NCBI GenBank assembly: GCA_018242205.1
Contig: JAFECJ010000010.1
Location: 1-64,000, forward strand
DNA: 64,000 nt
Origin: Pseudomonadota bacterium
GTDB taxonomy: Bacteria > Pseudomonadota > Alphaproteobacteria > Rhizobiales > Xanthobacteraceae
Reading direction: 5' to 3'
The translations under genes were made by a program, and so were the position numbers. Position 1 is the first letter of the stretch. Each line of letters opens with the position of its first letter. This document shows positions 1-3,052 of this stretch, piece after piece. The notes under the pieces are model-generated. The model had not been told where the DNA came from. It was given only the letters and a program-made list of their open reading frames with translations, and did not search any database.

Positions 1-1300
1 GCGCCTGCACGGTCTTGGCGACCTTGCCGTTCTTGCGGAACGTCAGGTCCCATTTGCCGTCGGCTTCGACCGCTTTGAGGAACTGGTCGTCGACGCGCAC
101 CGAGTTGTTCGAGTTCTGGCCGGAGACGGTGAGATAGGCATCGCTATCCCAGTCGGTGTCGTAGGTCGGGAAGTCGATGTCGGTGTAGCCCTGCTTGGCG
201 AACTGGATGACGCGCTTGATGAAGTTGTCCGGCACAAAGGCCTTGCGGGCGAGCTTGATCTCGCGCTTGAGCGCCGGGTTCTTCTCCGGGTTGAAGCAGG
301 AATCGTCCGGGCCTTCGCAATTGACGCAGGCCTTCATCACCGCCTTGAGGTGCTTCTGGTTGATCTTGGAGCCGGTGACCAGCGCCGCGACCTTCTGCTC
401 TTCCTGCACCTTCCAGTCGATGTACTTCTCGATATCCGGATGATCGGCATCGACGATCACCATCTTCGCGGCTCTCCGCGTCGTGCCGCCCGACTTGATG
501 GCGCCGGCGGCTCTGTCGCCGATCTTGAGGAACGACATCAGGCCCGACGACTTGCCGCCGCCCGACAGGCGCTCGCCTTCTCCGCGCAGGTTGGAGAAGT
601 TGGTGCCGGTGCCGGAGCCGTATTTGAACAGGCGCGCCTCGCGCACCCACAGGTCCATGATGCCGCCTTCGTTCACCAGGTCATCGGAGATCGACTGGAT
701 GAAGCAGGCGTGCGGCTGCGGATGCTCGTAGGACGACTTCGACTTGGTCAGCTTGCCGGTCTGGAAGTCGACGTAATAGTGGCCCTGGCCGGGGCCGTCG
801 ATGCCGTAAGCCCAGTGCAGGCCGGTGTTGAACCACTGTGGCGAGTTTGGCGCGCACATCTGGTTGGCCAGCATGTAGCGCAGCTCGTCATAGAAAGCCT
901 GGGCGTCGTCTTCATTGTCGAAGTAGCCGCCTTTCCAGCCCCAATAGGTCCAGGTCCCGGCCAGGCGATCGAACACCTGCTTCGACGAGGTCTCGCCGAT
1001 ATAGCGTTCCTTCTCCGGCAGCGTCGCGAGCGCCTCGGTGTCGGCGACCGAGCGCCACAGGAAGGAGGGGACCGAGTTCTCTTCGACCTTCTTCAGGCGC
1101 GCCGGTACGCCGGCCTTGCGGAAATACTTCTGCGCCAAAACATCGGACGCGACCTGCGACCAGAATTCGGGCACCTCGACATTGTCCAGCTTGAAGACAA
1201 TGGAGCCATCCGGATTCTTGATCTCGGACGTGGTCAGGCGAAAGTCGATCCCCGCGTAAGCCTGACCCGCTTCCTTCGTGTAGCGCCGTTCGATCCGCAT
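1..1300 (-). CDS. nrdJ: Vitamin B12-dependent (class II) ribonucleotide reductase, N-terminal part
   Basis: Reads leftward off the window edge; 433 residues from an ATG at 1300 are visible, roughly a third of the usual length. NrdJ makes deoxynucleotides from ribonucleotides with adenosylcobalamin as radical source, so it works with or without oxygen. Family-typical stretches seen are NSVPSFLWR (about residues 75-83), MCAPNSPQWFNTG (148-160), PQPHACFIQS (194-203; C199 is the probable N-terminal redox cysteine) and KYGSGTGTNFSNLRGEGE. The finger-loop cysteine and C-terminal cysteine pair lie outside the window. It has no close upstream neighbour in the same direction: about 750 bases of apparently non-coding sequence precede it, with strong hairpins that may form a long leader. 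Many long open frames on both strands here are GC-driven shadows. Confidence 0.95.
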   Translation of the reverse strand, partial: MRIERRYTKEAGQAYAGIDFRLTTSEIKNPDGSIVFKLDNVEVPEFWSQVASDVLAQKYFRKAGVPARLKKVEENSVPSFLWRSVADTEALATLPEKERYIGETSSKQVFDRLAGTWTYWGWKGGYFDNEDDAQAFYDELRYMLANQMCAPNSPQWFNTGLHWAYGIDGPGQGHYYVDFQTGKLTKSKSSYEHPQPHACFIQSISDDLVNEGGIMDLWVREARLFKYGSGTGTNFSNLRGEGERLSGGGKSSGLMSFLKIGDRAAGAIKSGGTTRRAAKMVIVDADHPDIEKYIDWKVQEEQKVAALVTGSKINQKHLKAVMKACVNCEGPDDSCFNPEKNPALKREIKLARKAFVPDNFIKRVIQFAKQGYTDIDFPTYDTDWDSDAYLTVSGQNSNNSVRVDDQFLKAVEADGKWDLTFRKNGKVAKTVQA

Positions 1301-2058
1301 TGTCTTCACGTCCCCAAATTCCGGGCGACCAGCGGCCGCCGACGATTATTCCAGACGGACCTGTCCTTGTCCGCCTTCCGTTCACTCAAAACCCTGTTTG
1401 ACACCCACCTGATGTAGGTCCGGGGCTCGTGCTGCGGCACCCGGTGAACTCCCGGGTTCCCATTGGAACCCGTTACGCAACAGTCTCCCGTCCCCTGAGA
1501 ACGCCTGAGGCGGCATCAGGGCTCAAAACGCGACTTCACGTCGGTTTGGAGGTTCCGGCGGGAACTCTTCATACGCATCACCCACACCGTACTGTCACAA
1601 AGCTATATGGGACTCGCCGTCGTCGTCAACAACAGTTAGTGGGTAGGTGTAACCAAATCCCTAAATCTTGTGTCAGTCCGGTGAAAAGTGAGGATAACGC
1701 CCGCGAGAACCGGGGGCAGTATGACCCTCCAGCCCCGACCGTGAAGCCCGTTTTTTTGCGGCCTGGACCTGGGTTTTGATGCCTAGGGCGGTGAAGAAAA
1801 AATGACGAAAAATGGGGGCTTGCCGACAACCCACAGCTTCTTTTCCGCTTCGGCCGGGCCGGGGATAAGCGCGGGATAAACACCGGTATCGTGGCCGACG
1901 AGTCCCTGATTCTCGATTTGAGGTCAGCCGCTTAGCCTGTGGGTGATCCGGACTGATGAGCGGGATGAAGTGTCCCACCCCTGTTGATGGCCCTACCGCT
2001 TGTGTTCTTGAGGCTTTGCAAAGGAATCGCGCCGGCAAAATTCGTCGGGGCCCAAGCG
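1301..2058. other. Gene-poor region upstream of nrdJ with structured segments
   Basis: No convincing protein gene in about 750 bases. A perfect 8-bp stem with a 4-base loop lies at 1453-1472 (CGGGTTCC/GGAACCCG). On the minus strand a nested structure can form from 1494-1523 (CCCTGA with TCAGGG, GCC-GGC inside), and GTTCC/GGAAC arms around 1552-1566. A run of seven T at 1751-1757 on the plus strand has no clean hairpin directly before it. Read leftward the region could be a long nrdJ leader or host a small RNA. Open frames here show no recognisable protein features. Confidence 0.5.
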
Positions 2059-2088
2059 AAAAGGCGGGCCCCTCGGAGGGAGCCCGCC
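2059..2088 (-). terminator. Intrinsic terminator of the candidate sRNA
   Basis: Stem GGCGGGC (2063-2069) with GCCCGCC (2082-2088) and a further short stem inside; on the minus strand it is followed by TTTT (2062-2059). On the plus strand only TT follows, so leftward termination is the better reading. Confidence 0.7.
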
Positions 2089-2158
2089 TTCGCATTTCCC
2101 GGCACTGTCATCTCGTTTTCAGCGGAAATGCCCAAACAACAGCGGCATTGCTGAATTC
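2059..2158 (-). ncRNA. Candidate ~100-nt small RNA (two stem-loops)
   Basis: Inferred unit between the promoter candidate at 2165-2194 and the terminator at 2059-2088. The RNA would contain a perfect 8-bp stem, GCATTTCC (2131-2124) with GGAAATGC (2099-2092) closing a 24-nt loop, followed by a GC-rich terminator hairpin whose upper part carries CUCCCUCC, complementary to Shine-Dalgarno sequences. A 9-codon frame (MPLLFGHFR) begins near the 5' end without a clear ribosome site. Not assigned to any known family; alphaproteobacterial sRNAs with unpaired CCUCC loops are known as trans-acting regulators. Start and end are predicted from sequence only. Confidence 0.4.
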
Positions 2159-2164
2159 GCGGGC

Positions 2165-2194
2165 ACCATAGCCCTAGATTCTGGGCAAAGGCAA
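2165..2194 (-). promoter_or_regulatory. Candidate sigma-70-type promoter of a small RNA
   Basis: On the minus strand TTGCCT (2194-2189) is followed after 18 bases by TATGGT (2170-2165), a pattern like housekeeping promoters of Rhizobiales. Transcription would start near 2158 and meets an intrinsic terminator only about 100 bases later, with no good protein start in between. Confidence 0.45.
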
Positions 2195-2724: not shown

Positions 2725-2985
2725 ATGGGTCTCAGTAAGCGCCGTCTAAATCTCGTCATTCCCGAAAGGGCGATGGAGAGGTTGGATTGGCTTCGTGACC
2801 GCACCGATGCCGCATCCCATACTGAGGTAATTCGTCAGGCTTTGTTCGCGTACGAGCAGATAGTTGCCAAGATATCGGAAGGTTCGGTGCTGATGGAGAA
2901 AACCCCGGGAGGTCAGCTACATCCGCTGCCTCTCTCCGTCGATGTCCGGCCAATCGGTAAAGCCAACCTCAAAGTTGCCAGTTAA
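2725..2985 (+). CDS. Ribbon-helix-helix (Arc/MetJ-type) DNA-binding protein
   Basis: 86 residues from the ATG at 2725, placed 7 bases after AGGAGG (2712-2717); an earlier in-frame ATG at 2701 lacks this support. Residues 4-50 fit the RHH fold: a short basic beta strand (KRRLNLVIP) then two amphipathic helices with the typical turn DAASHTEVIRQALFAYE. Such proteins bind DNA as dimers of dimers. No toxin gene follows; the next gene is on the opposite strand beyond a strong terminator, so it is an orphan rather than an obvious antitoxin. The C-terminal 35 residues have no recognised fold. Likely autoregulated through the palindrome at 2669-2693. Confidence 0.75.
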   Translation: MGLSKRRLNLVIPERAMERLDWLRDRTDAASHTEVIRQALFAYEQIVAKISEGSVLMEKTPGGQLHPLPLSVDVRPIGKANLKVAS

Positions 2986-3023
2986 GCCGCTGTATCACCG
3001 CCACTCATCCAAATCGTCTGCTT

Positions 3024-3052
3024 GGGCCCGGTTTCTACCGGGCCCTTTTTTT
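3024..3052 (+). terminator. Intrinsic terminator after the RHH gene
   Basis: Perfect 8-bp stem GGGCCCGG (3024-3031) / CCGGGCCC (3038-3045), 6-base loop, then seven T (3046-3052). Confidence 0.9.

Follow-up and report, generated by a model that had tools for sequence, protein, structure and literature searches.

Alphaproteobacterial sRNAs of the alpha-r14/NfeR1 type carry conserved CUCCUCCC-like anti-Shine-Dalgarno loops. BjrC68 is treated as a separate sRNA in the passages of the literature that mention it, where its start site is tested and Madhugiri et al. 2012 is cited (PMC4842269), and in passages mentioning BjrC68 we found no target, partner, or function for it. Sponges of other sRNAs have been described, SroC being a sponge of GcvB and PspH a sponge of Spot 42 (PMC9438474). 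Here we describe an sRNA gene upstream of nrdJ in the window (the whole stretch of DNA analyzed, 64,000 nt). On balance, we regard its product as a lineage-specific partner of BjrC68, probably acting as a sponge, a reading drawn from sequence comparison.

The features of the locus are collected in Table 1. A preliminary description of this DNA had proposed a −35/−10 pair with an 18-base spacer on the minus strand (2194-2165) and a GC-rich terminator ending in TTTT at 2059, and both elements were recovered at these places. TTGC and TA(T/A)NNT, at near-constant spacing, are kept in nearly all of 30 species, and the terminator stem is kept as well, with 95.4% of cells paired and two-sided changes at 4 pairs across the 30 species. 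Neither the promoter nor the terminator appears in the list of a simple consensus scan, both being off the strict criteria of that scan. We set the 5′ end of the sRNA at its presumed start, 7 nt past the −10 box, and its 3′ end at the T run; our covariance model R1 scores 89.3 bits at this place, and the fold of 2160-2057 is lower than that of 200/200 dinucleotide shuffles (z = −3.2). A small protein encoded from AUGACAGUG was considered and rejected for want of a conserved start codon or frame: the triplet at the start of the core is ATG in 22 homologues, ACG in 5, and CTG in 3, and the spacer between core and terminator differs by 1 to 7 nt, out of frame. With its own conserved promoter, an intrinsic terminator, and no conserved reading frame, the element has the makeup of an autonomous sRNA gene. 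The gene is well supported by these features, and we infer that it is transcribed.

Table 1. Positions of the features of the sRNA locus and of nrdJ in the window
Feature	Position	Strand	Basis
nrdJ, N-terminal part (the contig starts within the gene)	1..1300	−	Translation and tblastn synteny
Separate nrdJ promoter, TTGACG - 17 nt - ATAGCT	1601..1629	−	Alignment
sRNA, ∼100 nt	2059..2158	−	Covariance model R1
Rho-independent terminator, AAGGCGGGCUCC...GGGGCCCGCCUUUU	2059..2090	−	Fold and conservation
Invariant core, GACAGUGCCGG	2099..2109	−	Identical in 30/30 homologues
5′ hairpin P1 (UUCAGC-AAUGCC / GGCAUU-GCUGAA)	2118..2155	−	Pairing in relatives, folds
Conserved sRNA 5′ end, GAAUUCAGCA	2148..2158	−	Alignments
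σ70-type promoter	TTGCCT 2194-2189, 18 nt, TATGGT 2170-2165	−	Sequence and conservation

The same description had called the gene compact, complete, and uncharacterized, and had named conservation in relatives as a test of its proposal; both points are borne out by the conserved promoter and terminator and by the searches that follow. Using blastn on 40 related genomes, we retrieved homologues from ten of the same genus (the window's own genome included), and from these we built a covariance model, which gave matches above 49 bits in 30 of the 43 congeneric genomes. The window's own genome has a single match. Among 297 genomes of the order nothing scored above 38 bits outside the genus; the weak matches were mostly terminator-like, and at the loci fetched from this search every core has at least two mismatches. 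A scan for core plus terminator in the genomes of 84,980 species yielded 26 loci, several from Pseudolabrys and the rest from metagenome-assembled genomes that are unclassified or otherwise labeled, and every locus has an nrdJ, mscS, or NDUFA12 gene of like kind as a neighbor. Comparison with Rfam returned no match for the window at the gathering threshold, for the sRNA element at an E value of ≤5, or for 20 relatives at an E value of ≤0.1, which fits the uncharacterized status, and we found no literature joining a small RNA, nrdJ, and Alphaproteobacteria. It is almost certain, from this pattern of conservation, that the nrdJ-linked element represents a real and previously uncatalogued sRNA family of Pseudolabrys. 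In a tree of NrdJ the sRNA-bearing genomes do not form one clade; most forks are weak, and gains and losses are not countable on it.

Within the sRNA, the 11-nt core sits between a variable hairpin and the terminator, while the remainder of the RNA diverges. Its predicted accessibility is only moderate (0.07 to 0.88 in 22 homologues). The P1 hairpin (2155-2144/2132-2118) has 94.7% of cells paired in seven close relatives and varies in length and sequence among homologues. Its single-sequence z-scores range from −0.06 to −3.8 (22 homologues), which makes the hairpin more a tendency than a fixed fold. In two homologues (L036 and L041) it is lost or collapsed, so that the 5′ end and the core are joined and the core is kept; for this reason we take P1 to be a spacer. 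The 8-bp stem noted earlier competes with P1. Its two arms, GCATTTCC (2131-2124) and GGAAATGC (2099-2092), one of which overlaps the core by one base, are indeed present in the window, but close relatives do not preserve the stem: in seven of them 73.5% of cells are paired, with zero compensatory changes.

The preliminary description had further suggested that the terminator loop exposes CUCCCUCC and that the RNA acts by pairing with Shine-Dalgarno sequences. Among the 30 homologues only that of the window carries this motif (1/30); the sequence and the length of the loop vary freely, CCUCC occurs in 3/30, and no conserved exposed loop of the CCUCC type is seen. What is conserved is the core, and the core complements BjrC68, not Shine-Dalgarno sequences. 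An anti-Shine-Dalgarno sRNA acting through this loop can hence be practically dismissed; the observation of the sRNA gene stands, and the mechanism first proposed for it does not.

Downstream of the sRNA lies nrdJ, the gene for vitamin-B12-dependent ribonucleotide reductase. Wherever the contig is long enough, the sRNA is found between NDUFA12/mscS and nrdJ, and in every genome whose contig reaches nrdJ it is upstream of and codirectional with that gene. This constancy would suit an attenuated or riboswitch-type nrdJ leader, in which transcription from 2165 stops at 2059 unless a signal permits read-through. We consider such a leader highly improbable. The sRNA does not directly precede nrdJ but is separated from it by ∼700 to 1,150 nt across genomes (about 750 to 760 nt in the window); the terminator looks unconditional, and no conserved alternative pairing was seen. 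Moreover, nrdJ has a conserved promoter of its own, the TTGACG of which is kept in genomes that lack the sRNA, and because of this separate promoter nrdJ is independent of the sRNA promoter. The constancy of this location does not by itself imply that the sRNA regulates nrdJ.

The intervening DNA has features of its own. The minus strand of 1300-1980 is strongly conserved and noncoding, with repeated TTATCC-type boxes and GANTC sites; the nrdJ promoter is followed by a leader of ∼295 nt, and the region has no Rfam match. It is a candidate nrdJ regulatory region or leader RNA. A replication origin between the sRNA and nrdJ was rejected on the GC skew of a congener assembled in one contig, which changes sign at ∼0 to 0.2 and 2.3 to 2.5 Mb, while the locus lies at 2.75 Mb. 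Elsewhere in the window, a strong terminator at 2973-3052 on the plus strand, downstream of a small ribbon-helix-helix-like open reading frame, resembles SorY, with a score (26.8 bits; E = 0.008) far under the cutoff of 111, and the likeness is probably that of the terminator alone.

To look for a pairing partner, we searched 11 genomes, chosen for carrying the sRNA, for CCGGCACTGTC, which complements the core exactly. This gave 69 places, and we grouped the surroundings of those outside the sRNA by similarity. Besides the sRNA, one place was strongly recurrent, located after amtB in 10 of the 11 genomes, once in each; the remaining places formed a single further group, of two loci. When the 11-mer was reversed as a control, 28 places were obtained, of which at most 4 clustered together. 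The element downstream of amtB is BjrC68 (RF02353), with 54.7 bits in the window's own genome against a gathering cutoff of 39; the complement there (G000:C79:3247-3257) falls inside the BjrC68 loop and 3′ arm, where CCCGGCACUGUC is the exact complement of GACAGUGCCGGG in the core. The window sRNA is not itself a member of this family, showing no match to the RF02353 model. A second complement in the same genome (G000:C91), between ihfB-like and lapA-like genes, was rejected as a target: it resembles part of a promoter (TGACAG-17-TTATAA) and was judged a coincidence. One congener (G054) carries two BjrC68 copies ∼1.2 kb apart (L214 and L195), both with the 11-nt complement.

The complementarity, which extends over 11 to 13 bp, is conserved in the genomes that carry both RNAs, as would be looked for in an sRNA sponge. 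BjrC68 scores over the cutoff in 37 of the 43 Pseudolabrys genomes, and 35 of these 37 have the exact complement, among them all of the genomes that have both the sRNA and BjrC68 over the cutoff (27/27). The deviating copies, with CCATC (CCGGCACCATC) in G016 and CTGCC (CCGGCACTGCC) in G005, both belong to genomes without the sRNA at nrdJ. Since both pairing segments are invariant where both RNAs occur, compensatory change cannot appear. The argument from coevolution is weaker because BjrC68 keeps CACUGUC in several genomes that lack the sRNA (G019, G021, and G047); a genome of another genus (G438) likewise carries it, and the 3′ arm of BjrC68 may be constrained by its own stem, within which 5 of the 11 paired bases fall. 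BjrC68 folds with an open CCGGCA and a paired CUGUC. Across the bacterial family, where 75 of 120 genomes have BjrC68 over the cutoff, the stem arms vary, and almost every copy read retains the loop ACCCGGCA, which is unpaired in the fold; the openness and conservation of this loop are as expected for a seed.

The predicted joint fold reaches −105.3 kcal/mol, versus −95.4 kcal/mol for the two RNAs apart, a gain of 9.9 kcal/mol. For the whole sequences minus their terminators the duplex energy is unexceptional for RNAs so rich in G+C, with 422 of 2,000 shuffles as low; for the core segment 0 of 2,000 shuffles were as low, a comparison that is partly circular, BjrC68 having been found via the core. 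Given the recurrence and conservation of the complement, and the gain in the joint fold, base pairing between the sRNA and BjrC68 is likely.

A different reading of the core is that it pairs with one or several mRNAs and that the match to BjrC68 is coincidental. An invariant, partly single-stranded core is what an mRNA seed typically looks like, and mRNA targets need 7 to 9 nt only, which is below the 11-nt length of our search. Against this, 10 of 11 genomes have the exact 11-nt complement within a conserved sRNA, each mRNA context at 11 nt recurs in two loci at most, and the chance of an 11-mer match within the known noncoding RNAs of one genome is estimated to be on the order of 0.002. We thus hold a coincidental match to be unlikely. 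Rather unlikely, too, though somewhat less so, is that the sRNA is a regulator whose target is the 3′ untranslated region (3′UTR) of the amtB mRNA, with BjrC68 as its end, so that pairing would alter how stable that mRNA is or how BjrC68 is released. BjrC68 lies 37 to 64 nt past the amtB stop codon in the loci of Pseudolabrys that we examined, and no conserved promoter was seen in the aligned gap, as this reading would have it. The part with conserved, seed-like character is the BjrC68 loop, which suits a contact between two sRNAs, and the literature passages that mention BjrC68 treat it as an sRNA in its own right (PMC4842269).

We propose that the σ70 promoter gives rise to a trans-acting RNA of ∼70 to 120 nt in which a rapidly evolving spacer hairpin links a short, conserved 5′ end to the invariant core, followed by the terminator. 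Its first contact with BjrC68 would be made at the open loop, ACCCGGCA pairing with UGCCGGGU in the segment GACAGUGCCGG(G)(U) that the sRNA offers; the core would then invade the 3′ arm of BjrC68 (CUGUC with GACAG), and the hairpin would be opened. By occupying the seed loop, the sRNA would hide the seed or route BjrC68 to decay, so that BjrC68 targets are freed and a threshold is set for a signal increasing along with the expression of amtB. amtB is normally induced under nitrogen limitation. We call the sRNA a putative sponge because BjrC68 is older and more widespread and because the core matches its widely conserved loop; duplex formation, the direction of the effect (sponge versus target), and a connection with nitrogen status are what we infer from the comparisons above.

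The core is also found outside the sRNA gene. We scanned the 43 genomes for the core with a T run after it, a pattern that in reversed form, as a control, gave one match. Besides the sRNAs, the scan detected GACAGTGCCGG directly before real terminators at three sites: in the pckA 3′UTR of G047, 4 nt past the stop codon (L236); in G019, 6 nt past the stop codon of a gene for an L31-like ribosomal protein (L288); and in G055 after a multihaem-cytochrome-like gene with many CxxCH-type haem motifs (L162/L241, G055:C44). Other non-sRNA matches of the core were not before terminators. In the NrdJ tree G019 groups with G047 as its sister (support, 91/86), and neither genome has the sRNA at nrdJ; G055 has the nrdJ-linked sRNA too and would hold two baits. 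Small as these numbers are, they hint that the bait is able to sit in different transcripts. In Bradyrhizobium, a corresponding bait, the complement of the genus's own BjrC68 loop before a T run, was scattered over 14 of 61 genomes without a clear recurrent locus. As a tentative picture, a dedicated and independently transcribed sponge gene may have arisen in one genus against a family-wide sRNA, with the bait moving between hosts (as in the 3′UTRs of the sister genomes) and the BjrC68 loop remaining fixed.

If the pairing is true, it is the first predicted interaction of BjrC68 and indicates ACCCGGCA as its seed; it would also place BjrC68 in nitrogen control via amtB and offer a natural tool for testing BjrC68. 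The approach suggests that sRNA-sRNA pairs may be found by genome comparison alone, by asking where sequences complementary to an invariant core recur.

Compared with described systems, the window sRNA shares with the alpha-r14/NfeR1 group its size, a rho-independent terminator, and an alphaproteobacterial host, but the anti-Shine-Dalgarno motif of that group is not conserved among its homologues. BjrC68, an sRNA of the Bradyrhizobiaceae, is likewise short and comes from the same bacterial family; the two differ in locus (amtB versus nrdJ) and in distribution (most of the family versus Pseudolabrys only), and their sequences are complementary, not similar. The likeness to SroC and PspH is that of a small transcript in which one stretch is perfectly complementary to an exposed segment of another sRNA. 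Whereas SroC and PspH derive from the 3′ ends of mRNAs (PMC9438474), the window sRNA, as a putative sponge, comes from an intergenic gene that has a promoter of its own.
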